This document shows positions 9,406 to 31,037 of a stretch of 36,063 nucleotides of DNA, in pieces. The translations under genes were made by a program, and so were the position numbers. Position 1 is the first letter of the stretch. Each line of letters opens with the position of its first letter. The notes beneath the pieces are model-generated. The model was not told the DNA's origin. It ran no database searches and saw only the letters and a program-made list of their open reading frames with translations. Source of the DNA: a virus. The stretch spans positions 1-36,063 of IMG/VR virus record IMGVR_UViG_3300003873_000032, one strand, 5' to 3'.

Positions 9406-9418
9406 TATTGCTCCTCTA

Positions 9419-9574
9419 TTAGTTTGGTATAGCTGTAGCTAGTGCAGACACCCAGTTGATTAAGGCATCTAGTAAGTCAATACCAGAGTTACCATCTAGA
9501 GTCATGATTATTAATAGGGGTAAGCCTCCAATGAAGCGTGCTCCACCAATCATTCTAGCTTTAGAAGTATCCAT
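9419..9574 (-). CDS. putative small membrane peptide (51 aa)
   Basis: An open frame of 51 codons begins MDTSKARMIGG and contains a hydrophobic stretch FIGGLPLLIIMTL (about 14-26), then an amphipathic C-terminus (LLDALINWVSALATAIP). It fills the gap between the H1-like gene and nrdA. It starts 3 nt after the upstream stop, but the SD is weak, so the real start may be the internal ATG at residue 8. It is shorter than most gene-calling cut-offs. No family is recognised. Confidence 0.4.
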   Translation of the reverse strand: MDTSKARMIGGARFIGGLPLLIIMTLDGNSGIDLLDALINWVSALATAIPN

Positions 9575-9577
9575 AGG

Positions 9578-9751
9578 TTAGGCTTTGTCAGCAGCTACTA
9601 ATGCAGCTCTTGTTGGAGTAACAAGCTTCTTGATTTCACCAAGTGATTTACGGATACGACCTGAAGTTGCTTTAGTTTGCTTTTGCTCGTAGCTATTGAT
9701 TTCAGCTAGTGCTGTTTCTAAGTGTTGTTTAATTGTGTTTAATTCTTGCAT
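9578..9751 (-). CDS. histone H1-like small basic protein (57 aa)
   Basis: The product MQELNTIKQHLETALAEI..., 57 aa, has a helical first half. Its second half, TSGRIRKSLGEIKKLVTPTR, follows the R-x-R-K-x-x-x-E-I-K-K-L-x-x-x-x-R pattern of bacterial histone H1-like (Hc1-type) proteins, also seen in phages. The expected role is DNA or RNA binding and compaction. The SD AAAGGAACACA is strong. It follows immediately after the structured noncoding block and its terminal stem, so the RNA block and this gene may share a transcript or be separated by that stem. Confidence 0.55.
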   Translation of the reverse strand: MQELNTIKQHLETALAEINSYEQKQTKATSGRIRKSLGEIKKLVTPTRAALVAADKA

Positions 9752-10221
9752 TGTGTTCCTTTTAATTAAAAGCTCAACGTAGCCAGACGGTATAATACCT
9801 ACTGGAAGAGGTTGAGCGTTGGTGCTATACTAGACTAAAAACTAGTACTGGTTTATGGTTGTTGCCTAATCACCATAGTAGTATCAGTAGCTATGACTGA
9901 ATCCTCCATAAGAGAGCTGCTATGATGCCTAAGGTACACGTCCTGAACGAACTCCAATAGTCTTTAATACCTAACCCCTGTCCCACTGGAGGTTAGATTT
10001 TGATAAGGGACTGCCATAATATAACGGATTGATACTACTCATTACTGACGCATTAGTCCTCGTCTATGGTTGCTCTACAATGGGCATTTGATTTTTAAAC
10101 CCTCTACTGGGGTAGCACATTACTGTGTTCAAATGGAGTCCACTACATCGGTGCAAACCTGCCCGCTGTGACACTTAGTAGTATATTACCTCAGAGTTTT
10201 TAGACTTCAGTGGACTGGTCT
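9752..10221 (-). ncRNA. 470-nt gene-free block with strong RNA structure (candidate noncoding RNA R1)
   Basis: No open frame with an SD is seen here, but several helices fit one minus-strand RNA. 10138-10144 pairs with 10209-10215. A three-way junction is closed by 10085-10091/10129-10135 and holds a hairpin at 10099-10113 and one at 10116-10127 with a GUAA (GNRA) loop. 9971-9978/9989-9996 is an 8-bp stem that needs a G-U pair only on the minus strand. A long terminal stem closes 9772-9817. No group I intron core or tRNA is seen. The class is unknown. Confidence 0.55.
9768..9817 (-). terminator. terminal stem-loop with short U-run, end of candidate RNA R1
   Basis: GCTCAAC (9817-9811) pairs with GTTGAGC (9778-9772), with an inner CCAG/CTGG and GGTA/TACC stem stacked inside. 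TTTT then follows, and AATTAAA. This is an intrinsic-terminator-like layout, though the U-run is short and the stem is interrupted. It could equally be the 3' structural domain of the RNA. Confidence 0.4.
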
Positions 10222-10305
10222 TTAGCCTCTAATTTGAGGAAGGGTGAAGATGCCTGCTAGGGTTAGTACTATGTAGATAGTTACACCTATTAAGATGTCT
10301 AGCAT
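10222..10305 (-). CDS. putative 27-aa single-span membrane peptide
   Basis: A 27-codon frame starting at ATG 10305 overlaps the stop of the DUF2158-like gene as TAATG, a junction used repeatedly in this genome. The peptide MLDILIGVTIYIVLTLAGIF... is almost wholly hydrophobic until a short TLPQIRG tail, as expected for one membrane span. The SD is weak (GAAG), so expression would depend on coupling. It could be chance, but the exact junction and the clean hydrophobicity favour a gene. Confidence 0.4.
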   Translation of the reverse strand: MLDILIGVTIYIVLTLAGIFTLPQIRG

Positions 10306-10469
10306 TAGTCTTTGGCTTCAACTACTGGTGTAATACACCTTAAGTCAAAGCTACCGACTTGCTGTACACCATTATTGTCAACCCATTTTACATCAGCCAT
10401 TGTATAGATTTCTGTAATGGTTAGCACAGGGCTACCTGAATTTAGAGTTACTTTGTCATTTATTTGCAT
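10305..10469 (-). CDS. DUF2158-like (YodC-type) small protein (54 aa)
   Basis: MQINDKVTLNSGSPVLTI... through VKWVDNNGVQQVGSFDLRCI matches the DUF2158 pattern: G/N-D-x-V-x-L-x-S-G-x-P-x-x-T-V/I, then a central W and an F-x-x-x-x-L/C strand. These are small beta-rich proteins of unknown function common in phages and enterobacteria. The start follows AAAGGACAATTAAT and lies 2 nt after the upstream stop. At 54 aa it is easily missed. Confidence 0.6.
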   Translation of the reverse strand: MQINDKVTLNSGSPVLTITEIYTMADVKWVDNNGVQQVGSFDLRCITPVVEAKD

Positions 10470-10470
10470 A

Positions 10471-11951: not shown

Positions 11952-12461
11952 TTAAGTAGGCATTCTATTGCCTTTTGATTGATTTTCAGCTGCTGTAAGT
12001 ATCTGTAAGTTTTGCCAGCAATGAAAGCCAGACACAGTTGTGCCTTGCAGTGGATATATGTGATCCACTTGGTGTGGTACACCAGTTAGTTCTGTAAGGT
12101 ACCTAGCATGTACATAGAACTGCTCTATTAACCATAATTCATCAGGATCGTTTAATACACATGAGGGTGTACGTTGTAGTTTAGCTGCAAATCTTTTAGC
12201 AGTGTAGGCATTAACTTTACCTTTGTTATTTTGCTTCCATTTACTATTGGATATGGCTTTTTTATCTGGGTGCTGTTTATGGTACTCAGCAGTCCTACTA
12301 ACCATCAATTGCTTATATTCTGCAGACAGAGAGTCTCTATACTCTTTATTATATGTTTTTTGACACTCTTTGCAGTTTGATGATAAACCATCTTTACTAG
12401 CTCTTTTCACATAAAAGTCGTCTAGACTTTTAACCACATTACACTTAGTACACCTTTTCAT
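11952..12461 (-). CDS. HNH endonuclease with N-terminal zinc finger (free-standing homing type)
   Basis: 169 aa. The N-terminus CTKCNVVKSLDDFY...CKEC is the zinc-knuckle found in many phage HNH proteins. The catalytic region is VPHQVDHIYPLQG, then FHCWQNLQILTAAENQSKGNR, giving the DH, central N and final N/K of the beta-beta-alpha metal motif. It cuts DNA, probably to spread itself. It is inserted between the RNA ligase and the ssDNA-binding gene with its own SD (AAGGAAGTTGC). No intron flanks are seen. Confidence 0.82.
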   Translation of the reverse strand: MKRCTKCNVVKSLDDFYVKRASKDGLSSNCKECQKTYNKEYRDSLSAEYKQLMVSRTAEYHKQHPDKKAISNSKWKQNNKGKVNAYTAKRFAAKLQRTPSCVLNDPDELWLIEQFYVHARYLTELTGVPHQVDHIYPLQGTTVSGFHCWQNLQILTAAENQSKGNRMPT

Positions 12462-20403: not shown

Positions 20404-21360
20404 TTACACACCTGCTACAGGTGCTAATAGATTTTCTCTAGCTTCTTTAGATAGTAGGTTTTTACGGCCTCTGCTGAAGCTACCACAATCTGCACATTTG
20501 TACTGCTGGAATTTAGAGGCGTTAGTGAAGTAGTAACCATCTTCTGTTAAGTGAGATGAACCACATGTTGTACAACGCTTAGTTGTGCTACCAGAGCCTA
20601 CAACAATTGAAGTGTGGGGTTTAGCAAATGGCTTCATCTTCTCATAGATTTCTTCAGTTACTATTACATCCATTTTGTTGTAGGCTTTGTTCTCTGCCCA
20701 TGCTTCATCGTTGCCATGGAGCATTTCAATCCAGATAGTCATACCTGGAAAGTTTTTATGCTCTAATTTACGAGAGCAATTTAGTGACCTAGCAATCCAG
20801 TCAAGAGTGTTACGCTCAAATTTATAGTGGCGCTTAGCTATAGCTAGTGTGTCTATGATACGGTAAGGACTAACAGGTGGTAGGTTATTCATGATTAGAC
20901 GAGTGTTAACCATTGGTGTGTCAAATCGTTTCATATTGTGACCTACTACTATGTCTGCTTCGTTTAGTATTGTTGATAGCTCACCTAGGATATCCTTGTC
21001 ACAGTTGTTGCGATTTGCTCTGTAGTGGACCTTGTCTTCACCTAACCATTTGTAGGCGAAGGATAGGATTGTGATGTCGTCATCACGACGCATCGCATCA
21101 GAGATGTTTACCTGCCAGCGGTTGTAGCTGTAAGCTGTAAAGGGGCTAGTCTCTATGTCCATAACTAAGATACGTGCAGTAGGGTTAGCTACTGTTGATT
21201 TAGTTGGTGCTTTGTACTTCTTTAGGCGAGCTCTTAGTGTAGATGATGGTACTGAAAACATAGCTGCAATATCTACTATAGAGACACCTTCACTGCGTAG
21301 TTGTAGTATCTCGTCCCAATTGTTATTGAGTATCTTTTTAGTCTTTTTATGTGTTGTCAC
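20404..21360 (-). CDS. DEDD (DnaQ-like) 3'-5' exonuclease with HTH and zinc ribbon; separate proofreading subunit
   Basis: 318 aa, starting at GTG 21360 behind AAAGGA. Domains: HTH (about 10-50, VSIVDIAAMFSVPSSTLRARL); exonuclease core with ILVMDIETSP (D68, E70), IVVGHNMKRFDTP and AYNKMDVIVTEEIY (YxxxD); then a C-terminal zinc ribbon CTTCGSS ... YKCADCGSFSRG. In T7-like polymerases this exonuclease is fused to the polymerase. Here the polymerase gene is separate at 22.5-23.9 kb, so this is probably its proofreading partner. The HTH and zinc ribbon suggest independent DNA contact. Confidence 0.82.
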   Translation of the reverse strand: MTTHKKTKKILNNNWDEILQLRSEGVSIVDIAAMFSVPSSTLRARLKKYKAPTKSTVANPTARILVMDIETSPFTAYSYNRWQVNISDAMRRDDDITILSFAYKWLGEDKVHYRANRNNCDKDILGELSTILNEADIVVGHNMKRFDTPMVNTRLIMNNLPPVSPYRIIDTLAIAKRHYKFERNTLDWIARSLNCSRKLEHKNFPGMTIWIEMLHGNDEAWAENKAYNKMDVIVTEEIYEKMKPFAKPHTSIVVGSGSTTKRCTTCGSSHLTEDGYYFTNASKFQQYKCADCGSFSRGRKNLLSKEARENLLAPVAGV

Positions 21361-21369
21361 ATTGTTCCT

Positions 21370-22038
21370 TTAGGGGTGTTTGCTAATTACAGTCTGCAAT
21401 GATTTAGCCATATCTTCTAAGAGTTTAGTAGATTTAGTATAATCTTTATTAACATTTGATGATAATCTAGAATAAGCTATGTTTAAAAGCTTTTCAAGCA
21501 CTGTAAATTGCTTGTTATTATACACTTCGCGTTTTAGAGTTTCAAGCTCCATGATAAGTCCTACATTCTGTCCATTAGTCATTTCACTTAGTACATGGCT
21601 ATATGGAGTTGAACTTACAGGTTTTAAGTTAATTGAAAAATGTGGTATATGTGTACCAATGATATCAATAAAATGTCTGTAGTCAGATGGCTGATAATGT
21701 AAAGTTTCAACTACTGTATCATACTCAAATACTGTTAGCATCTCATCATAAGTGGACTCATGGCAATCAATAAAGTACTCTGCAAACTTACCATGTAAAC
21801 CAACTAATTTGTTTTCTAAGAATTGTGGTAATCCTTTAGACCCAGAGTACATTTTAAAGCCCAAAGCTAGGCAACGATAAATGTTAGCATTTGTATTCAA
21901 GTTTTGTTTTGTAATCTTAAAATTCCAGAAATATTCAGGAGCATTCTCAGCATGCTCACGTATAAATGCCTCTATTGCTTTTTGAGTAGTCATCTTAGAG
22001 AGCTTATCTATTTGTAGTTTATATTGAAAGTTATCCAT
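21370..22038 (-). CDS. M-D-x-F paralog, long form (222 aa)
   Basis: It begins MDNFQYKLQIDKLSKM and is the clearest full-length relative of the 214-aa protein at 24.2-24.8 kb. Shared blocks include STYDEMLTVFEYD with GTYEQFVAAFEGE, HIPHFSI with ILPFSFD, and ELETLKREV...TVLEKLLNIAYSRL with ELEHLKATV...TLLENMLSDAYKQV. It is mostly helical, with no known family. It lies between the polymerase and exonuclease genes. The SD AAAGGATAATA is strong. Function is unknown. Confidence 0.7.
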   Translation of the reverse strand: MDNFQYKLQIDKLSKMTTQKAIEAFIREHAENAPEYFWNFKITKQNLNTNANIYRCLALGFKMYSGSKGLPQFLENKLVGLHGKFAEYFIDCHESTYDEMLTVFEYDTVVETLHYQPSDYRHFIDIIGTHIPHFSINLKPVSSTPYSHVLSEMTNGQNVGLIMELETLKREVYNNKQFTVLEKLLNIAYSRLSSNVNKDYTKSTKLLEDMAKSLQTVISKHP

Positions 22039-22432
22039 TATTATCCTTTATGGTTTTAACCACTTTAGCTATTGCTTCAGCTATGTATGGGTGTACATTA
22101 CGTACTGCTACTAGCCTTGCTAAAGCAATCTCTTGAGATTTAGTTAGTGGAGTTATAGGTGTTGATACCATAGGTTCAATACCTAGAGATAGAAAAAATG
22201 AAGCATAGTTACTAAGCATCATAGGTAATTGCATTTTGCTACCTAGATAGTTAATAAGTGATAACATTTCTTTCATACCATCAGTAGTTTTAACATACTT
22301 AGCATTAAAAGTCCAGTTACTATATATCTCCCTGCAATCAATATACAATTTAGCAGCAGCTTCTTTGTAACCCTTCTTAGTTGTTATAGCCTCTAGCTCA
22401 GCTAGGCGTAGTGTGTAATCAAAGTGGTTCAT
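22031..22432 (-). CDS. M-D-x-F paralog, intermediate form (133 aa)
   Basis: MNHFDYTLRLAELEAITTKKG opens the protein. The following half aligns by eye with the N-terminal half of the 222-aa paralog (YSNWTFNAKYVKTTDGM against YFWNFKITKQNLNTNAN; LGSKMQLPMMLSN against SGSKGLPQFLENK). It looks like a C-terminally shortened copy. It overlaps the next paralog by 8 nt; the SD is AAGGACAAC. Unknown function. Confidence 0.65.
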   Translation of the reverse strand: MNHFDYTLRLAELEAITTKKGYKEAAAKLYIDCREIYSNWTFNAKYVKTTDGMKEMLSLINYLGSKMQLPMMLSNYASFFLSLGIEPMVSTPITPLTKSQEIALARLVAVRNVHPYIAEAIAKVVKTIKDNNG

Positions 22433-22547
22433 TAGTTGTCCTTAATGTAGGTAGCTTGTGTAACATGAGTTGTTTTGTTGTAGTAATTTCTCTAGTACGG
22501 AGTATAACACTATGACGTAGTATAATATGCATTTTATTATTAGACAT
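22419..22547 (-). CDS. putative basic small protein (42 aa)
   Basis: ATG 22547 overlaps the polymerase stop as TAATG. The frame MSNNKMHIILRHSVILRTRE... runs 42 codons and ends inside the next gene. It is basic (several Arg, Lys, His) with no family. The same bases also hold the SD of the downstream paralog, so part of the sequence is constrained for that reason. Support is the junction only. Confidence 0.35.
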   Translation of the reverse strand: MSNNKMHIILRHSVILRTREITTTKQLMLHKLPTLRTTNEPL

Positions 22548-23932
22548 TAGTGAGTTTCTGACCAATTGTTACCAATCAAATAATCTGCTTGTATTGATAA
22601 AGCCATATTAAATTGTTGTTGTATCATGTTGCACCCTCGTACCATTATATCACCAAGTTTCTCAGCATAATCTGTATCACACTGACATTGGAATTCATCA
22701 TGGACAAAAGCCATTTGTGACCATTTCTCACCATGAGGTAACCCTTCTTGAGATGCTAGTGTATGAAAGTTTAACATCCATTTTTTAGCTATTATACCTG
22801 CAGATCCTTGTAAAAGTAAGTTAAGTGCACTATGTGGTGACCGTGAATTAAGTTTACGACCATCAATTGCTGTAACAAATCCAGTATCTTTTGATTCTTT
22901 TTGACAGGCTTTAATAAGTTCTTTAATACCTACAACTTTCTCTAAGAAAGTATCTGATATACGCTTACCATAAATTGTTTGACGTATTAGTATTTCATCA
23001 TATAATACATAGGTATCTGGTTTTAATGGGAAATATTGCTTATCATCCATTATAATAATACGTCCCTCTACTCTCTTCTTAGCTTGTTTATATTCTTTGT
23101 CAGTGTAGTCATCTAGACATGTATCAGTCCAGAGTGTGTTACCACGTACAGTATCACCACTACCATACATCCAGGAAAAAAAGAAAGCTTTACTAGCACT
23201 TCTAGCAGCTTTCATTTCAGGAGTCCTGTCAGAGGCATGATTATCATCTGGCCAATCACGATCGTCTTTAGTCCAGAAACCTGCTAGCTTTGCATGATAC
23301 CAATGCATGTCTTTAGAAAGTACAGCCTTAGCATATAACCCATCATCATACTTTGATAGATAATGTGCAAGTGTACGAACCTCAATGTTTGCAAGGTCAG
23401 CACCAACTACAGCTCTACCAGGAGGTGCATTAAATAGTTTTCTAAACTCTTTAGCAGTTGGTACTTGTGCAAGATTTGGCTTTGAATGGGTTGCCCTATG
23501 GGTGTTAGCACCAATTAGGTCCACTTTATGGTGGATTGAGTGAGTATTCTCATTGTAGTTTTTTAAATAACCACCTTTTGTGTCATAACCTACAGTTCCC
23601 TGGTCCTTATATACACGAAGATACCTATGCAGTAGTTTACCAGCAGGATTGGTCATACCTGTTAATGAATCTGGGTCAACCTTTATACCACCATTTTTGG
23701 TGTAGAAAGGAAAAGTATAGCCATAATCTTCCTCCATCCATTTAATGATATGTTGTCGTGAACCAGGGTTAAAAGGTACATACTTGATTGGCTGATGTTG
23801 ACCACTACGAGTTACAATGATTGTCCTCATGGGTGAGGAGAACCATTTGATGGACCTCTTACCTGGGGGCTTGTAGCTGCCATTTTTGAGGTAGCGACCG
23901 TAGGGTATCTTGTAAGGTGTTAGGTTGTTCAT
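22547..23932 (-). CDS. family A DNA polymerase, T7-type polymerase domain without exonuclease
   Basis: 461 aa. YVPFNPGSRQHI, THRATHSKPNLAQVP, motif A AVVGADLANIEVRTLAHY (D179), fingers KAFFFSWMYGSGD (motif B region), IDGRKLNSRSPHSALNLLLQ and motif C FVHDEFQCQ follow T7 gp5 closely through to the GNNWSETH C-terminus. Motif A has Leu-Ala in place of the usual Ser/Tyr-Ser. The first 50 residues are basic and do not contain an exonuclease or an obvious full thumb. The SD GGAGG is excellent. It replicates phage DNA, probably with the separate exonuclease. Confidence 0.88.
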   Translation of the reverse strand: MNNLTPYKIPYGRYLKNGSYKPPGKRSIKWFSSPMRTIIVTRSGQHQPIKYVPFNPGSRQHIIKWMEEDYGYTFPFYTKNGGIKVDPDSLTGMTNPAGKLLHRYLRVYKDQGTVGYDTKGGYLKNYNENTHSIHHKVDLIGANTHRATHSKPNLAQVPTAKEFRKLFNAPPGRAVVGADLANIEVRTLAHYLSKYDDGLYAKAVLSKDMHWYHAKLAGFWTKDDRDWPDDNHASDRTPEMKAARSASKAFFFSWMYGSGDTVRGNTLWTDTCLDDYTDKEYKQAKKRVEGRIIIMDDKQYFPLKPDTYVLYDEILIRQTIYGKRISDTFLEKVVGIKELIKACQKESKDTGFVTAIDGRKLNSRSPHSALNLLLQGSAGIIAKKWMLNFHTLASQEGLPHGEKWSQMAFVHDEFQCQCDTDYAEKLGDIMVRGCNMIQQQFNMALSIQADYLIGNNWSETH

Positions 23933-23935
23933 TAA

Positions 23936-24163
23936 TTACCTCCAAGTAGAGTTATGAAAAGATTTGTATTTAGCTATTATTATTGCACGGATATAATCAG
24001 CATGTATTGAAGGATCCTTTAAGCTAAATAGGTAGTCATACATAAGCTTGTTTAGTAGCTTATGATTAGTATTATAATGGTCTCTTAGGAACTTAACACG
24101 TTGCTTATCCATAGTTAGCCCTTGCCATAGGCCAAGTGCTATCTTATACTTAAACTCATCCAT
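23936..24163 (-). CDS. M-D-x-F paralog, short form (75 aa)
   Basis: MDEFKYKIALGLWQGLTMDKQRVKFL opens a 75-aa helical protein rich in Lys, Tyr and aromatic residues (DYIRAIIIAKYKSFHN). Only the first 15-20 residues clearly match the other paralogs; the rest is diverged. It overlaps the upstream 214-aa paralog by 8 nt and ends four bases before the polymerase start. Unknown function. Confidence 0.6.
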   Translation of the reverse strand: MDEFKYKIALGLWQGLTMDKQRVKFLRDHYNTNHKLLNKLMYDYLFSLKDPSIHADYIRAIIIAKYKSFHNSTWR

Positions 24164-24800
24164 TTAGCTTACCTATAACCGTTGCTAGTGCTGATTGCTT
24201 TTCTGCAAGAGATTGGGTAAACTTTTGCAGTGTTTGAGAATCGAAGGAAGGAACTTGCTTATAAGCATCACTTAGCATATTCTCTAGTAATGTGTACACC
24301 CCACCTTTGAAGACCGTAGCTTTTAAATGCTCTAGCTCTAGTACCTTCTCTACTGCTGAGTTTTGTGTAACATTACACAACAACCCTGAAAAGCTACTAG
24401 AACTATTAATATAGTAGTCAAAGCTAAAAGGAAGTATGTTACCACCTATTAGTTTTATCATTGGTATGGAACTACGTGCATCTGAGCCTAATAGCCTAAC
24501 AGTCTTTTCACCTTCGAAGGCTGCCACGAATTGCTCATAGGTACCCTCACCATTATGAAAGTGTGTTTTTAGTGTATGCTGTAGTCGTCCAGATATAACA
24601 CGTACCAGCTTAGACAGCTTTCGCTTACCATCATACTTGGTTGTTATAATTTTAAGTGCATTATACATACGTATCTTGTCATCAATAGAAAGCTCATCGT
24701 ATTTAATTGAGGCTACTTGCTCTGCTAAGTTGTAGACTTCTACCTTTGTAGTAGCTGCTTTTAGTTGTTGCATGATGAGGGTGTATTTGAAATGGTCCAT
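24156..24800 (-). CDS. M-D-x-F paralog, long form (214 aa)
   Basis: MDHFKYTLIMQQLKAATTKVEVY opens a mainly helical protein that is homologous over its length to the 222-aa paralog. The conserved centre GTYEQFVAAFEGEKTVRLLG, with IGGNILPFSFDYY and LELEHLKATVFKGG, suggests one folded domain of about 130 residues after an N-terminal helical anchor. It follows the metallopeptidase/VWA gene directly (SD AGGAGCTATTT). No enzymatic motif is seen. Confidence 0.7.
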   Translation of the reverse strand: MDHFKYTLIMQQLKAATTKVEVYNLAEQVASIKYDELSIDDKIRMYNALKIITTKYDGKRKLSKLVRVISGRLQHTLKTHFHNGEGTYEQFVAAFEGEKTVRLLGSDARSSIPMIKLIGGNILPFSFDYYINSSSSFSGLLCNVTQNSAVEKVLELEHLKATVFKGGVYTLLENMLSDAYKQVPSFDSQTLQKFTQSLAEKQSALATVIGKLNG

Positions 24801-24809
24801 AAATAGCTC

Positions 24810-26291
24810 CTATACCATAAGGATATTTGTACCTGGTACGCTAACAGGGTTATTAGCGCCAGCACATATCCAGTAGTTAGTAAGCTTCCTCATTGTAGGG
24901 AAGTTTCTGAACTCACTATCAATATCTGAATAGTTATCACTGAATGACATGTAGATAACCATACCTGGGTCTGGTAGCTTCATATCTTCGATGTGTTCAA
25001 ATACACAACGGTGACTTGTACCACCTGATGTGTAGCGAGTAGCTAAGGCTTTAGAGAACTCTGGTGATGCTGCAATATCATAATCATCTTCTATGTTGAA
25101 CTCTTGGATAACTCTAGTGTCGTGTATGAGTACCTTTAGAGAGGCTATATGGATTGATTCAGATTCAATGAGGTAAAGTAGCTTTTGCAAGTCTTCTGTG
25201 TTCATAGAGCCACTATGGTCCACTGAGAGTATGATGTTGATCTTATTATCAATGAATTGCTTCTTAGGGGATTTATAGATACGACGGTATGTGTTGTTGA
25301 GGTTAGCCCAGCTTGTTGAATAGTCGTGAGTCTTGTAATAGACTTGACGTTTGAAGCTAGCCTTGATCTTTTTGAACCAACCAGTTTCTACTTTTATAGA
25401 GCTAAATAGTTGCTCGAAAAGTTCACCAGCTTGTGAACCTTTAGTGTTGCTTGAGATGATATCCTGGAGAGACTCTGAGAGGTCAGCCATTGAGATGTCA
25501 GCATCATCAGAGTCTGTTGAACATTTATCAGGTTTGCCACCCTGGGCTTTAACTTTACCACCTTTACCTTTATCGTCTTCTTCACCACCAGGGCCACCAT
25601 TAGACTTAGTGGGTTGATTCATAGTTTTACCATCACACGTGATAGCTGACATCATGTCAGATATCTGTTGTTTGGTGATATGGTTTTCTTCTTTGATTAA
25701 TAACTTTAAGATATCAATGTCTGATAGCTTCTCTTGGTGGTACTGTTTGTTGTACATACCTATATCTTCAATCTCTTGCCATTTAGGCTTTAGAGTTGAA
25801 GATAACATGAAGAGATCTTTTAAGCTATAGTTGATAGCATGATCTTCGGCAATGTTGATTATTTCATTAGGAAATGCTACATCACCTGCTATATTTTCCA
25901 TCATGGTGTTATAAGACTTGGTGACGTGTTTACGTAGTATATGCTGCACTTCATGCATATACACAAATGCTAGGAATACAGAGTGACGTGGTAAGTGATT
26001 AAGGATAGCTTTAAGGTCTTTTTCTTCATGATACATGAAAGTAAAGAAGACCTTAGTAGTATCACCGTGTTTAACGTATGCAGAGAAGTAAGGCATAAAG
26101 GTTTTTAACTCTTTATACATCTTAGGAAGTGGTTGATGAGTCTTCTCAATGGCTACCTCAATTGGTAACTTGAGAAACAGTCCAGTGCTTAATGCAGCTG
26201 TTTTGTTTTTACCTAAAAGGAGATTGGCATTTTTAGCAACTTCCTTGTAGATAAAGTCTTCCGCTTCTTTAATAAAGTCTTCTGGGTTCAT
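24810..26291 (-). CDS. VWA-domain protein with zinc-metallopeptidase-like N-terminus (DUF2201-like), partner of MoxR ATPase
   Basis: 493 aa. The N-terminal domain has H113-E-V-Q-H117 (HExxH) and a later NIAEDHAIN (about 146-154) that could give the third ligand, as in DUF2201 putative metallopeptidases. A Gly/Lys/Asp-rich linker (about 228-262) leads to a VWA domain with MIDAS motif D358-H-S360-G-S362 and later TSGGTSHR and FSDNYSD. Bacterial MoxR AAA+ ATPases act with such VWA proteins to remodel or insert metal into clients. The MoxR gene lies 1.5 kb upstream with small paralogs between. The SD is AAGGAACCCCA. Confidence 0.75.
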   Translation of the reverse strand: MNPEDFIKEAEDFIYKEVAKNANLLLGKNKTAALSTGLFLKLPIEVAIEKTHQPLPKMYKELKTFMPYFSAYVKHGDTTKVFFTFMYHEEKDLKAILNHLPRHSVFLAFVYMHEVQHILRKHVTKSYNTMMENIAGDVAFPNEIINIAEDHAINYSLKDLFMLSSTLKPKWQEIEDIGMYNKQYHQEKLSDIDILKLLIKEENHITKQQISDMMSAITCDGKTMNQPTKSNGGPGGEEDDKGKGGKVKAQGGKPDKCSTDSDDADISMADLSESLQDIISSNTKGSQAGELFEQLFSSIKVETGWFKKIKASFKRQVYYKTHDYSTSWANLNNTYRRIYKSPKKQFIDNKINIILSVDHSGSMNTEDLQKLLYLIESESIHIASLKVLIHDTRVIQEFNIEDDYDIAASPEFSKALATRYTSGGTSHRCVFEHIEDMKLPDPGMVIYMSFSDNYSDIDSEFRNFPTMRKLTNYWICAGANNPVSVPGTNILMV

Positions 26292-26533
26292 TGGGGTTCC
26301 TTATAGTTGTGTTCCCATCTGTGAGTATCTTTTAATTCTATTGCTCTAGATGTAACAGGTAGTTCATCAGCTTTATTAGCCACTAGCTGTTTTAAATGCA
26401 GATATTCATCTAGTGATATTGAAGATTTTGGTATTGTAAGTATAAATCTACAATAATTTTCAAGTGTCTCTATATTTATGAGTAAAGTACTCTTTAAAGC
26501 TTTAATCATAATTGTAAATTTGAATTCATCCAT
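26288..26533 (-). CDS. M-D-x-F paralog, short form (81 aa)
   Basis: The start is ATG 26533 (MDEFKFTIMIKALKSTL), behind AAGGGCATTT; a longer frame to 26557 would add eight residues and hide the signature. The remainder is helical (LENYCRFILTIPKSS, LDEYLHLKQLVANKADELP). It overlaps the VWA gene start by 4 nt (ATGA). The family link rests on the N-terminal signature. Confidence 0.6.
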   Translation of the reverse strand: MDEFKFTIMIKALKSTLLINIETLENYCRFILTIPKSSISLDEYLHLKQLVANKADELPVTSRAIELKDTHRWEHNYKEPQ

Positions 26534-26541
26534 AAATGCCC

Positions 26542-26746
26542 TTATATGTATTGCCATAGCTTTGCTGAAAGTGCTACTATGTGTTTAGCCTTGCTTAGTG
26601 AGTAAGTTGTTGAATGTAGCTGAGTCATTAGTTGAGTAGCTTGAACTGGTAATAGATCGCTAGTAGTTTCCTCAAGGAGGGGACATAGTGCCTTCTGGGT
26701 CAGATTTTAATGTATTGTAGAGGATTTGGTATTTGAAGTTGTCCAT
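26542..26746 (-). pseudogene. M-D-x-F paralog broken by a +1 frameshift
   Basis: ATG 26746, behind AAGGACTAGCA, begins MDNFKYQILYNTLKSDPEG, the family signature, but meets TGA after 24 codons. If one base is skipped in the CCCC tract near 26679-26682, the frame continues for 46 codons (LLEETTSDLLPVQATQL...) to TAA at 26542, only eight bases before the next paralog. Options are a single-base insertion, a sequencing error in a homopolymer, or programmed +1 frameshifting at UCC-CCU. The downstream half remains free of stops, which favours a recent or programmed event. Confidence 0.55.
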
Positions 26747-26748
26747 TG

Positions 26749-26988
26749 CTAGTCCTTAGAGATATCTATGAGTAGTTGTGCGTAGCGTGTGTAGGTAGCT
26801 ATAATATTACCATGAGACATATGGGGGTGTAATTTTTCTATAAACTGCTTGTCTATAGATAGATCACTATTCCTATCATTTATGGTAGTATTCAGCCTAA
26901 CGCTACAAAACTTGATGGTGGTATCTAATTGTATAAGCTCATTGGAAGCTATTAGGTAGTACGTGAGTTTAGTTTGAAAGTCATCTAC
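26749..26988 (-). pseudogene. M-D-x-F paralog with GTA in place of the start codon
   Basis: A 79-codon open frame reads (V)DDFQTKLTYYLIASNEL..., the family signature with GTA exactly where ATG should be. Upstream is AAGGACACTA, with normal SD spacing. No other ATG or GTG exists before the body of the frame; the first internal Met is near residue 57. It fits exactly between the neighbours, ending 3 nt before the next start. Either a point mutation killed initiation, or a non-standard start is used, or the base is a sequence error. Confidence 0.5.
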
Positions 26989-27214
26989 TAGTGTCCTTAG
27001 TTAACATATAATGCTGAAAACGATTCATTGCATCAGTACGTGTAAAACCACTTTTAGCTATCTTAAAGAACAGTGATTTGGATAGCATAGCAAAGTCATC
27101 CACAAAAGGTTGTGTCATTAGTTCTTTGCTATAGATATCACACATCTCCCTGGTTATAGGTGTAGACATATCACGTAGAGATTCAACCGTGATAGTATAT
27201 TGAAAATCATCCAT
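26981..27214 (-). CDS. M-D-x-F paralog, short form (77 aa)
   Basis: MDDFQYTITVESLRDMSTP opens a 77-aa helical protein (REMCDIYSKELMTQP, MLSKSLFFKIAKSGF). Its start overlaps the upstream stop as TAATG. Its C-terminal codons overlap the start region of the GTA-initiated paralog by 8 nt. Unknown function. Confidence 0.6.
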   Translation of the reverse strand: MDDFQYTITVESLRDMSTPITREMCDIYSKELMTQPFVDDFAMLSKSLFFKIAKSGFTRTDAMNRFQHYMLTKDTSR

Positions 27215-27453
27215 TAACGACCTCCTGATCCGGTTTTATAGTAAGGTAAGAGATCTCTAGCTGCAATTAGTAGCTCTTGGTTATCTCTTACTACTTGGTG
27301 CTGTACTAATCCTTTAAACATAGCTACACGTTTAGGGAATGGTAGTTGAAGCATTTCACGAGTATTGATGTAGTCAAATAACTCCTCTGATGAGAAGTCG
27401 TGTTGACCTGATGCAATAGTCTCTGATAGCACCTTTAGCTTGAAGTCATCCAT
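27214..27453 (-). CDS. M-D-x-F paralog, short form (79 aa)
   Basis: MDDFKLKVLSETIASGQHDFSSEELFD opens the protein, followed by a helix-rich body (FPKRVAMFKGLVQHQVV, ELLIAARDLLPYY) and a GSGGR tail. The SD is AAGGATTCCC; it overlaps the upstream paralog by 8 nt. It shares the signature and the acidic S-x-x-E-L segment with the 107-aa paralog (ITSDELDTL). Confidence 0.6.
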   Translation of the reverse strand: MDDFKLKVLSETIASGQHDFSSEELFDYINTREMLQLPFPKRVAMFKGLVQHQVVRDNQELLIAARDLLPYYKTGSGGR

Positions 27454-27769
27454 GGGAATCCTTAAAAGGTATTAGACCTTCTGTACTATATTTATTTATT
27501 TTTAAATGCTTACTTACTAATATTGCTTTAAAAGTAGACTGAGGTATTGACCATGTAGTATCACCCAATTTATCTATATGTGTATTAAGCATTTTGCGTA
27601 TACGAGCCCCTCTACCATTTAATAGGTGTGGCATTGAATATTCGTAGTTGGTGAGGTACCTTCTACGTACATTAATCATAGGAAGTACTAGTGTATCAAG
27701 CTCATCAGATGTGATAGAAGTGCTACCCATTAGGCGCTGCTCTAATAGCTTAAGCTTAAAGCCATCCAT
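27446..27769 (-). CDS. M-D-x-F paralog, medium form (107 aa), first of the array
   Basis: MDGFKLKLLEQRLMGSTSITSDELD begins two bases after the MoxR stop, so translation is probably coupled to the ATPase gene (no strong SD). The rest is basic (INVRRRYLTNYEY, GRGARIRKMLN, SKHLKINKY). It is the first M-D-x-F copy in transcription order and the one tied most closely to MoxR. Confidence 0.6.
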   Translation of the reverse strand: MDGFKLKLLEQRLMGSTSITSDELDTLVLPMINVRRRYLTNYEYSMPHLLNGRGARIRKMLNTHIDKLGDTTWSIPQSTFKAILVSKHLKINKYSTEGLIPFKDSHG

Positions 27770-27771
27770 GA

Positions 27772-28773
27772 CTAGTGAATAAACTCACAAGAGATAGCAT
27801 ACAGCTTATCGTGTTCAGCAAATGTTAGCTTGTTGTACTTCTTAAGTTGACTCTCTGTAAGAGGCTTATTGTACTTAGTAGCATCATAGCTAGATTTTAG
27901 TAGCTTATCTAAGATAACACGTAAGCCATCAGTGATGTGCTTACCTTCTTCAGCAGTTAAGTACTTAGTATATAACTCACCAGCAATGAATCCTATGAAG
28001 TTAGAAGACTCCATGTTAGTATCTATAAGGTCCATAACATAAGCCGCATCATCTATAGTCTCAACATAGTTGATGATATAGGCATATAGGATTTGATCAA
28101 TAGCTTTGAGGGCCTTAATGTCAATTGGGGCTTTAGCTTTGATCTTAGCTGTGAAGTCAATAGCCTCTATATATGCAATGTGTTTAGATAACTCATTAGC
28201 AGCAGCTTTTGATACCTTTTGTTTAGCAAGGTATGTTGTGTTATCTTGTAAGAACTGACGGTCGTATAGCTCGAACTCATTAGCTAGGTGTGTCCAACTA
28301 CGTGGAGTACCAAATTGCTCAATCATAGTAGATTCATCTTCTTGAGTATACTTTGAGTGAGAGCGTAGAAATGATGAGATGTAGAAGTGAAGCTTCTTAC
28401 CGAAGTTCTCAAACCAGTACTCAAAATCGAAAGGTACTGGCAGGATACCTAGGCGGTCTTTAATTGGTGAATCAATACCACTGAAGCCAGCTTCATCGGA
28501 GTCGTTCATTGCACCCATTATTGCTACTTTTTGGTCAAGTTTAAATGAACCAAGTTTACGCTCACCTAGTAGGCCGTAGAGGTATGGTGCTACAGCCATG
28601 TTAACACGGTGTAGGTCATCTATGAATAGGATACAACCAGATTTGCCTTCCTTTGTTGCAAGGCGGTTAGCTGTTTCAATGATTTGTGGTACTGACCACT
28701 TAGTTGCCATTGATTCTACAGAGCCAGTTACTGAGTAGCTGTCCATATGGGATGCTTCAATGAAGTCAGGGAT
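27772..28773 (-). CDS. MoxR-type AAA+ ATPase, exon 2 (Walker B to C-terminus)
   Basis: The second exon starts ATC-CCT-GAC (IPDFIEASHMDSYSVTG) and supplies 333 residues. It carries Walker B CILFIDDLHRVN, sensor 1 AIMGAMNDSDEAGFSG with an aspartate-rich loop, an arginine-finger-like SPIKDRLG, and the helical lid to the end. Joined to exon 1 it gives a protein of about 399 aa, typical of MoxR/CobS-like ATPases. On its own the exon also has an ATG at 28746, which would give a product without Walker A, so that frame is not the gene. The paralog array and the VWA partner follow. Confidence 0.8.
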   Translation of the reverse strand: MPDFIEASHMDSYSVTGSVESMATKWSVPQIIETANRLATKEGKSGCILFIDDLHRVNMAVAPYLYGLLGERKLGSFKLDQKVAIMGAMNDSDEAGFSGIDSPIKDRLGILPVPFDFEYWFENFGKKLHFYISSFLRSHSKYTQEDESTMIEQFGTPRSWTHLANEFELYDRQFLQDNTTYLAKQKVSKAAANELSKHIAYIEAIDFTAKIKAKAPIDIKALKAIDQILYAYIINYVETIDDAAYVMDLIDTNMESSNFIGFIAGELYTKYLTAEEGKHITDGLRVILDKLLKSSYDATKYNKPLTESQLKKYNKLTFAEHDKLYAISCEFIH

Positions 28774-29863
28774 CGTTTATATTCAGCAGTAGTCGTTAAT
28801 TACTGCCCGCACCATTATGTGCAGCTACGTGTCTCCACGTAGACTAGACTATATCTTAATCTTTATTTATTTAACTTTCTAGAACAAGGTAGGCAATACT
28901 GAATTGCCCCTTCTAGAGATCTTCTCATAGTTTGTGACCAAGGACTACTAATCTCTTGTAAACAATTATTACATGTGTACACACCAAACCACTTATACTT
29001 AGGTTCACCACCTATAGTAAGTAATTTATATTGCACACCAATTATTGTTCGTCCACCAATGTCTTCACCAATATGAGTCATGAGTTGTTCAAAAGTATTA
29101 GTTTGAGTAGTTTTCTTACTAGCCTTTATACTTTTAGCTCTGACATTCAGATCTTGATTATCTGCTGAATGTTGCATATTTTCTTGGTGTGTTACCCATT
29201 CAAGATTCTCAACAGTATTATTAGTACCATCTTTATCTTTATGGTTGACAAAAGGTTTATTATCAGGATTAGGCAAAAAAGCTTCAGCAACTAGTCTGTG
29301 CATATGTACAGTATAATTAGTACCATCATTAGATAATGAGGCCTTTATGTATGTTGTATGCATTTGCTTATGGTAGCTGCCTGAGCGTATTTTAGTACCA
29401 CTTTTTGTTGTCACACGTAGATTACCCTTGTTTGACACCTCGTAACGAGGTCCATACTTAGGGTCTACAGGTTTGAAAATTTCTTCATTTTTCATTATAC
29501 TTCCTTAAATTAGATAAGTAAGTATACCAAAAAATCTCTTAAAGTTATATAAAGATTTCCCCCATTTCCACTCCACTAGAAGTGTACGAGCATGATGCTC
29601 TAGTCGTTGAACCTTCTCCTGGTTACGGAGCTTGGCTGCTGATTGCCTCTATTACCTACTTTTCAAACCGTCAACATCTGCTTTCGCGATGCTTGTGGTG
29701 TAGATACTTAACAAGGGTTCCCAGCAATTAAAGGGATGCAAAACACACATCACTGTGTGTAAGGGCTGTAACATTACCACACTACAGCCTAATACTTTCA
29801 CTACTATCATTTGTTTATTCTCATCATAGTGTTGGTACTAGGTGTAAATGTGGTATGTTGTTA
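28774..29863 (-). mobile_element. group I intron (about 1,090 nt) inside the MoxR ATPase gene
   Basis: Exon 1 ends in U (GTGGT) and the intron ends in G (AAACG), the group I rule; removal restores ...ENLSG-IPDF... in frame. ACCAC at 29854-29850 can pair with the exon end as P1. Core signatures on the minus strand are AATTGCTGGGAACCC (about 29729-29715), GGCAATCAGCAGCCAAGC (29647-29630), GAAGGTTCAACGACTA (P7 5' side, about 29616-29601) and AAGATATAGTC (P7 3' side, near 28857-28847). A 7-bp P9-like hairpin with GAGA loop is at 28825-28842. An HNH gene lies in the P8 region. Exact boundaries are inferred. Confidence 0.8.
28863..29495 (-). CDS. intron-encoded HNH homing endonuclease (NUMOD4-HNH type)
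   Basis: 210 aa. The N-terminus (EIFKPVDPKYGPRYEVSNKG) is NUMOD4-like. The HNH_3 core follows: VHMHRLVAEAFLPNP, PFVNHKDKDGTNNTVENLEWVT, with the H, N and H/N residues. The C-terminus holds a zinc ribbon (YTCNNCLQE ... QYCLPCSRKLNK). It is encoded inside a group I intron and probably cuts intronless MoxR genes to spread the intron. The SD AAGGAAGTATA is strong, so it is translated from the precursor or excised intron. Confidence 0.82.
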   Translation of the reverse strand: MKNEEIFKPVDPKYGPRYEVSNKGNLRVTTKSGTKIRSGSYHKQMHTTYIKASLSNDGTNYTVHMHRLVAEAFLPNPDNKPFVNHKDKDGTNNTVENLEWVTHQENMQHSADNQDLNVRAKSIKASKKTTQTNTFEQLMTHIGEDIGGRTIIGVQYKLLTIGGEPKYKWFGVYTCNNCLQEISSPWSQTMRRSLEGAIQYCLPCSRKLNK

Positions 29864-30061
29864 ACCACTTAGGTTTTCCGTACTTACCTCCGGAATAGAA
29901 ACTTGAACAACGTTCATGTTTAACTCTTCAGCTATAGCGTACATTGATTGAGTTTTTCCAATTCCTGGTTGTCCAGCTATGCATATACCACCACCTATAT
30001 CAGCTCCTGAGAGTTGGCCTTGTATGTTAGTCTTCAGAATTGTTGTTATTGTATTGTTCAT
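29864..30061 (-). CDS. MoxR-type AAA+ ATPase, exon 1 (Walker A)
   Basis: Starts at ATG 30061 behind AAAGGAAAACC. The 66 residues include Walker A CIAGQPGIGKTQS and the strand VVQVSIPEVSTENLSG, which in MoxR proteins continues G-x-P. The frame meets a stop one codon later in intron sequence, so without splicing only a short useless product is made. It overlaps the end of the upstream 336-aa gene by 35 nt. MoxR ATPases are ring-forming chaperones that act with VWA proteins such as the one at 24.8-26.3 kb. Confidence 0.8.
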
Positions 30062-31037
30062 GGTTTTCCTTTAAGATGTTGTGGACGTCAAGTATTGACG
30101 AAGTTGTTTTTAGTGCTATTGTAATATCTACAGGTGTTAGCTGTTTAGCTAATTTCTTAGCTAGTAATGTGTAAGCTGGTGTTGATGTTAATCTAGCAGC
30201 ATTAGTTAACTCTGAGATTGCTGCTAACATACGCTCAGCTAGGCGAGTATCAACATTGGTGTAGATAGCATGAGTACATATTGGTGTGTCAGTTGAGTAT
30301 GCCATCAAAGAAGCCATGCTATTTATTGTTACTAAAGTTGATAGCTTTATACATATTGCTTCATCCTCATCAGGTATATATAAATCACCATCAGTTGTGT
30401 ACAAATATGTTGGTAATAAATTTTGCAACATTGCCTTAGTGTGAACATCCGTGTTGTTTAGTACTATAGCATAAAACTTATTACGTATTTTAACTATGTC
30501 TGCACTTTGGTCGTTACTATTGTCAAAAGCTTCATTGATTTTAATAATATAGTTTTTAGCCTCGGTACGTAAGAAGCGTTTAGTGATACTATTTTTAAAT
30601 ATTGATAATGAAAACATATCCATATTGAAAGTCAACTCAGTACCCTTAGTAGACCTACGAGAGGGATTAGCCTTACGCCATTGGTTACGATTGTAAGTAG
30701 ATGCAAACTTAAGCTGATCAGCTGTTACACCCGCTACCTGTAATGTATTGTAATAGCTTCTAAATGGTGTTGCAGCTTGCTCAATAGCCTGTTTAATAGG
30801 GCCTTTAATACCGTATGTACTAATCTGATAGCCACCTTTAAAACATTGTATTTGAAGAGCAGTGCACTGATTAGGTGTAAGATTCTGAACTACATTTGAA
30901 GGTATTGTTGATAGGTACACCTTTAATTCATAGTTATCTAAATTAAGCCTGTTGATCTCATCAATTATGGCTACGTAGGTTGTGTAATCTTCTTTTTCAA
31001 TCTCTGTGAAGAGGTCTGCTAAACTATCTATAGCCAT
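30027..31037 (-). CDS. unknown 336-aa protein upstream of the MoxR gene
   Basis: MAIDSLADLFTEIEKEDYTT... is a mostly helical soluble protein. Basic stretch RNQWRKANPSRRSTKG (about 116-131) could contact nucleic acid; TDGDLYIPDEDEAICIK forms an acidic strand region; the C-terminus is Asn-rich (HEQYNNNNSED). No family is recognised. The SD is AAAGGACTAAC. It overlaps the MoxR start by 35 nt, so it may be an accessory component of the MoxR/VWA system, by location only. Confidence 0.6.
   Translation of the reverse strand: MAIDSLADLFTEIEKEDYTTYVAIIDEINRLNLDNYELKVYLSTIPSNVVQNLTPNQCTALQIQCFKGGYQISTYGIKGPIKQAIEQAATPFRSYYNTLQVAGVTADQLKFASTYNRNQWRKANPSRRSTKGTELTFNMDMFSLSIFKNSITKRFLRTEAKNYIIKINEAFDNSNDQSADIVKIRNKFYAIVLNNTDVHTKAMLQNLLPTYLYTTDGDLYIPDEDEAICIKLSTLVTINSMASLMAYSTDTPICTHAIYTNVDTRLAERMLAAISELTNAARLTSTPAYTLLAKKLAKQLTPVDITIALKTTSSILDVHNILKENHEQYNNNNSED

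Follow-up and report, generated by a model that had tools for sequence, protein, structure and literature searches.

Paralogous small proteins with a shared N-terminal helix around the MoxR/VWA genes of N4-like phages

MoxR/VWA machines and related systems

The genes coding for gp24 (MoxR) and gp25 (vWFA) are core genes of N4-like phages, gp24 being listed as a protein of unknown function (PMC4193335). Iyer et al. 2021 (PMC7824862) proposed that MoxR and a metallopeptidase-vWA protein of jumbo phages function in virion assembly, with processing of peptides. A MoxR AAA+ ring working with a VWA adaptor, as in the pair described here, is also the organization of NorQ/NorD, CbbQ/CbbO and RavA/ViaA. 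For NorQ/NorD, delivery of the client to the AAA+ ring is attributed to the VWA protein, with the MIDAS site as the presumed place of client binding (PMC9976466). These systems act on one or a few host complexes, while many small phage clients are proposed for the locus analysed here.

The MoxR-vWA ternary conflict systems (Kaur et al. 2020, PMC7159879) resemble this locus in having a module present on several neighbours and on a protein next to the core. However, their effector-associated module is a domain whereas the module found here is one helix of about 14 residues, and they belong to a multicellular bacterium while the present locus is a replication region of lytic phage type. Among the tagged proteins scanned, none has a recognisable effector or signalling domain fused to the segment. 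The T4 internal proteins, fast-diverging small proteins coded by several genes per genome, likewise begin with a short constant segment, which serves as capsid targeting sequence (PMC3012670).

It is quite possible, though proposed here tentatively, that the small proteins described below dock through their first helix onto a constant partner, most likely the phage MoxR AAA+/metallopeptidase-VWA machine, the array coding for rapidly diverging small helical proteins.

The phage record and its MoxR/VWA pair

The window, meaning the whole 36,063-nucleotide stretch analysed, is a whole virus record (IMGVR_UViG_3300003873_000032) and represents part of an N4-like phage. It has the gene order of N4 and of the Schitoviridae: gp24-like MoxR, gp25-like VWA, pol, exonuclease and primase. 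The primase matches those of N4-like phages over most of its length, the best being Alteromonas phages PT11-V19 and R22Y (~41%), with 32% for phage AD45-P1. For the very large virion RNA polymerase, a single weak match (E 7e-5 over 110 residues) came from one of the relatives, the window being a fragment. The core genes are:

29864..30061, minus strand: MoxR first exon, 66 codons, Walker A GQPGIGKT
27772..28773, minus strand: MoxR AAA+ ATPase second exon, Walker B onward, N4 gp24 homolog, splice point approximate
24810..26291, minus strand: metallopeptidase-VWA protein, N4 gp25 homolog, HExxH at 113-117, MIDAS D358/S360/S362/T425/D452

MoxR thus features the Walker motifs and VWA both HExxH and MIDAS. 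The two proteins align with N4 gp24 and gp25 and have the same HExxH and MIDAS residues; H113, E114, H117, D150 and the five MIDAS positions of VWA are kept in all phages compared, N4 included. The 66-codon first exon is found also in L003, L004 and L006. Compared to N4, MoxR is longer at its carboxyl terminus and VWA towards its amino terminus, and both additions, conserved in the tagged group, would be candidate receptor sites.

Close relatives of MoxR (67-76%) and VWA (57-74%) occur in five IMG/VR records of 34-118 kb, and a primase profile found two further fragments. Scans of viral contigs with VWA, MoxR, primase and long-form queries returned repeatedly these same five records and two fragments. 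The genome-contig scan with MoxR gave zero relatives, and tblastn of VWA and long form j against annotated phages gave no match.

An array of small tagged genes

The MoxR/VWA pair of the window is surrounded by small proteins that the N4 pair lacks. The ten starts claimed by the initial annotation were all confirmed:

27446..27769, minus strand: tagged protein a, 107 aa, begins MDGFKLKLLEQRL
27214..27453, minus strand: tagged protein b, 79 aa, begins MDDFKLKVLSETI
26981..27214, minus strand: tagged protein c, 77 aa, four helices in the AlphaFold2 model (pLDDT 86)
26750..26988, minus strand: copy d, 79 open codons, VDDFQTKLTYYL, GTA at the expected start, apparently decayed
26541..26746, minus strand: copy e, begins MDNFKYQILYNTL; a stop follows 24 codons, and the +1 frame extends it to 67 aa
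26288..26533, minus strand: tagged protein f, 81 aa, begins MDEFKFTIMIKAL, 4-base overlap with the start of the VWA gene
24156..24800, minus strand: tagged long form g, 214 aa, directly after VWA
23936..24163, minus strand: tagged protein h, 75 aa, begins MDEFKYKIALGLW
22031..22432, minus strand: tagged protein i, 133 aa, begins MNHFDYTLRLAEL
21370..22038, minus strand: tagged long form j, 222 aa, AlphaFold2 pLDDT 88 and pTM 0.82

The opening M-[DN]-x-F is found at 27769, 27453, 27214, 26533, 24800, 24163, 22432 and 22038. The family totals 37 members, distributed between the window (10), L003 (5), the record of L004 (4), L005 (4), the record of L006 (8), L011 (5) and L033 (1). All six records that cover the MoxR/VWA site have tagged genes, the seventh fragment, L033, contributing one more; the genomes are few and all related, so that these counts are not independent. 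In the six site-covering records, tagged genes adjoin VWA on one or both sides, often overlapping it or standing a few bases away, and sit between MoxR and pol. Some lie several kb off MoxR/VWA (G002 near 2,463, G004 near 70,014 and L011 4976).

The shared N-terminal segment

The segment has the consensus M-[DNT]-x-F-x-[YLF]-x-[IL]-x4-[IL]. An HMM of 26 N-terminal residues trained on the five other phages, without the window, had nine of the ten window N-termini as its top nine matches in the six-frame translated window; in the tenth, which it missed, GTA replaces the start codon. With the training reversed, the sites of the other phages were recovered together with an unlisted L003 gene with a GTG start at 12093. 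The N-terminal profile search suggested by the initial annotation has thus been run across related phages and extends the family beyond the window. A pooled profile gave 27 matches across the whole records of the five relatives. In L033, outside the training set, its top two matches fall at the expected place before pol, one being an 85-aa tagged protein and the other a 12-codon remnant. The pooled profile found no tagged gene in six other N4-like or MoxR-bearing phages (N4 and five more); the presence of MoxR/VWA without tagged genes in N4 and other phages shows that the pair can work without them. M[DNT]xF opens 27 of 188 ATG ORFs of at least 60 aa in the six genomes, where composition predicts 1.3, and 26 of the 27 lie in the array region; this enrichment is only indicative as the genomes are related.

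In 36 aligned sequences, residue 2 is D, N or T, which are helix-cap residues, residue 4 is F (35/36), residue 6 is mostly Y, L, I or F, residue 8 is I, L or V and residue 13 is I or L, with polar residues at 3, 5 and 7. From residue 14 on there is no strong conservation; T or S is frequent at 17-18, where it may cap a second helix. Pairs of sequences average 24% identity for residues 2-18 and 7.5% for residues 19-60, compared to 7.4% for shuffled tag segments, and no part other than the N-terminal segment is conserved across classes. Both synonymous codons are in use for F4 and for residue 2 among the ten window copies. The segment is therefore conserved at the protein level, and this codon variation ruled out a DNA repeat or promoter behind the constant start. 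Hydrophobic positions 4 and 8 lie on the helix face opposite to 6, 9/10 and 13, a pattern that would fit one inward and one outward face.

Protein bodies and predicted structure

Past the shared segment, detectable similarity does not cross group limits, the groups being the long forms, one short orthogroup and some of the remaining proteins. The long forms are homologous throughout, as initially described for the two of the window (about 27% identity, leave-one-out body z 6.7 to 19). Long-form identity is 20-27%, whereas VWA keeps 57-75%. The short bodies are diverged indeed, but a view of wholly unrelated bodies on a tag would be too strong: 9 of 21 score above their own shuffles at p<0.05, when about one is expected. 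Protein c forms the short orthogroup with L004_4946, L011_8744 and L006_7345 (body E 8e-7 to 5e-3, in a small database), while L011_4976 and the G002 copy appear related (against the medium set, z is ~6 for each). That the bodies of the long forms are homologous to the short or medium ones was rejected, the long-form body profile scoring the latter no better than shuffled sequences. At the 20-30% identity of the copies synonymous sites are saturated for dN/dS purposes. Searches of the tagged proteins gave nothing above cut-off in Pfam and no convincing match in PHROGs, PADLOC, NCBIfam or PDB sequences.

The AlphaFold2 models of c and j, each read separately, are confident although the alignments are shallow. 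Helices are predicted at 3-14, 22-34, 39-54 and 61-74 in the short form c, and at 3-14, 19-31, 35-39, 47-63 and 72-91, followed by a mixed carboxyl-terminal part, in the long form j. Both models build the tag into a compact helical domain as its helix 1, so that it is predicted not to be a loose appendage; structural constraint within the protein's own domain could explain part of its conservation. Foldseek of both models against PDB and BFVD gave no match below E 0.2, and the best VIA Z values, 6.0 (short) and 6.9 (long), are in the range of common helical arrangements. Within the folds compared, the modelled domains appear to have no convincing known counterpart.

A second copy of the motif inside the protein preceding MoxR

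The motif is also found inside a larger protein encoded directly upstream of MoxR:

30027..31037, minus strand: pre-MoxR protein, 336 aa, with the motif MDMFSLSIFKNSI inside, from about residue 139

The pre-MoxR proteins have 320-361 aa, those of the relatives being only 11-40% identical to the window copy. The internal motif is their best-conserved block in six phages, [MVLQ]-[DNT]-x-F-S-[LY]-x-[IV]-F-x3-[IL], with the same spacing as the tag. A matrix of 13 positions, without the initial Met and trained each time on the other genomes, ranks the internal site 5/5315, 6/3896, 4/5093, 4/4868, 11/10187 and 11/5493; in L005 the N-terminal profile finds it as well, independently (E 0.01). The remainder of the protein shows no similarity to the long forms that hhalign can detect (probability 0.5%, 29 columns). 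With VMAP, iSTAND or another third core component in view, the protein was compared to the family libraries and matched no family. An internal translation start at the motif is unlikely, the Met position being V, L or Q in three relatives.

This internal copy bears on the somewhat unlikely alternative that the conservation of helix 1 serves mainly folding, or contacts between paralogs in homo- or hetero-oligomers, without docking to MoxR/VWA, the neighbourhood being a place of chance expansion. The position of the tag as helix 1 of a compact domain in both models agrees with such a role, and so does the homology past the tag in the long forms and several short bodies; yet under ordinary divergence helix 1 should not be kept when all detectable identity across classes is gone from the other helices, and the motif occurs also in a protein whose remainder shows no detectable similarity to the long forms. 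More than anything else, the internal copy favours a binding motif over conservation for structure alone and directs the search for the partner to the MoxR/VWA operon.

Copy number and decay

The array was initially described as paralogs multiplying and decaying in place. This is borne out by two apparently decayed window copies, a remnant in L033 and a copy number that varies between 1 and 10 per record. The window has two long forms, each site-covering relative one. Copy d starts GTA-GAT-GAC-TTT, closely preceded by the ribosome-site sequence AAGGA, and therefore looks like a copy with a lost start codon; GTA is one change from GTG, the start apparently used by L003_12093 and L006_10437. Copy e opens MDNFKYQIL and needs a +1 shift at CCT-TGA for its 67-aa product; by blastp against a small database, the second half of this product resembles L003_7152 (E 0.002 for the body). 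The site has the general form of known +1 shift sites ending in UGA. Programmed shifting is possible from the sequence, a one-base mutation or assembly error being simpler. The L033 remnant, MNAFQYSLAMKK* before pol, has 12 codons and resembles the start of a long form.

Such copy number changes and decay, together with the very fast divergence of the long forms relative to VWA, might be expected of a host-takeover or counter-defence repertoire, with a single host factor as target of the common helix and host pressure driving the bodies apart. This role is unlikely: the fixed place by MoxR, VWA and pol and the internal copy of the pre-MoxR protein point to a phage partner, and neither PADLOC nor other libraries gave a match, although counter-defence proteins would not be expected in a library of defence systems.

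Proposed role of the shared helix

The favoured role thus remains docking of the helix to the phage machine. The initial annotation had proposed a docking tag on variable bodies. A shared docking element is supported, not proven, because the segment alone is conserved across classes and the same motif is found inside the otherwise unrelated pre-MoxR protein; a detachable tag is at odds with the AlphaFold2 models, which fold the segment into the domain. The motif would bind some partner, for which gene context suggests MoxR or VWA. Residue 2 of the tag is Asn or Thr in 17/36 sequences and hence not an obligatory acidic MIDAS ligand.

The constant first helix would dock the paralogs onto one MoxR/VWA machine, and the variable bodies would be its clients or target-specific adaptors, presumably to be remodelled, cleaved or delivered. 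Cross-genome profile recovery of the tag and its co-location with MoxR/VWA count in favour of docking. Further points are the internal copy before MoxR, the HExxH and MIDAS kept in VWA and the NorQ/NorD adaptor precedent. The several-kb distance of some tagged genes from MoxR/VWA counts against it, as do the MoxR/VWA pairs of N4 and other phages that have no tagged genes and the folding of the segment into its own domain.

A bolder form of this proposal, which we consider quite improbable, is a phage routing code in which one helix delivers diversifying small proteins to the MoxR/metallopeptidase-VWA machine that unfolds, matures or loads them. Its logic is similar to T4 internal-protein targeting, the differences being that the docking helix is folded and that an AAA+ peptidase is dedicated to the task.

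A conserved N-terminal segment on diverse small proteins is indeed common to T4 and the present phages. The T4 targeting segment is directly followed by a conserved protease site, whereas here no site is conserved at positions 14-24 beyond the weak T/S at 17-18; the segment is predicted to be part of the fold, and the genes lie by MoxR/VWA among replication genes. It is accordingly very unlikely that these are virion-loaded or ejected proteins with the helix as packaging signal and MoxR/metallopeptidase-VWA in loading or processing, despite the virion assembly role proposed for the jumbo-phage pair (PMC7824862) and the four virion proteins that N4-like phage RPP1 encodes near its gp24/gp25 homologs (PMC4193335).

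The tie between this family and the gp24/gp25 pair provides candidate clients and a 14-residue motif open to pull-down and reporter transfer. If docking on MoxR/VWA is true, it would show how a phage diversifies small proteins yet keeps one port to a shared machine.

Possible tag-like segments in the long forms and in MoxR

The matrix for the tag, the N-terminal helix shared by the array of small proteins, was trained each time on other genomes. In the long forms, the tagged proteins homologous throughout, it picks another internal place within a conserved block around xYTxxExxL, which is possibly a second tag-like helix.

Second tag-matrix place in long forms (rank among scored positions)
Window 21370-22038, long form j: near residue 174, rank 7
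L005 9219-9908: near residue 176, rank 7
L004 7132-7830: near residue 181, rank 8

The start of the AAA+ ATPase MoxR (window about 30061-30020, minus strand), MN-x5-IL-x-TNI, is also tag-like but lacks F4, the Phe at residue 4 of the tag; the matrix places it at rank 4 in L004 only.

Interrupted genes

The MoxR gene of the window is split by a group I intron directly 3' of the Walker A exon.

28774-29863: intron region
29457-29795: group I intron match (RF00028)
28863-29495: HNH ORF within the intron

The same site is occupied also in the related phages L003, L004 and L006, and unoccupied in L005 and L011. The pol gene of L004 carries a second group I intron (L004 9641-9937). That of L006 is likewise interrupted, with no Rfam match at gathering score.

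Other features of the window

The minus strand of 9406-10470, a stretch of ~1 kb on the upstream side of a ribonucleotide reductase-like gene, has no ORF of at least 60 amino acids, which is unusual amid an otherwise dense region; this segment gave no match in Rfam at gathering score.

The DNA polymerase product lacks an exonuclease part, the exonuclease having its own gene.

22547-23932: DNA polymerase gene
20404-21360: separate exonuclease gene

The latter codes for a DnaQ-like 3'-5' exonuclease whose carboxyl terminus is an apparent zinc-ribbon. The relatives show this too.
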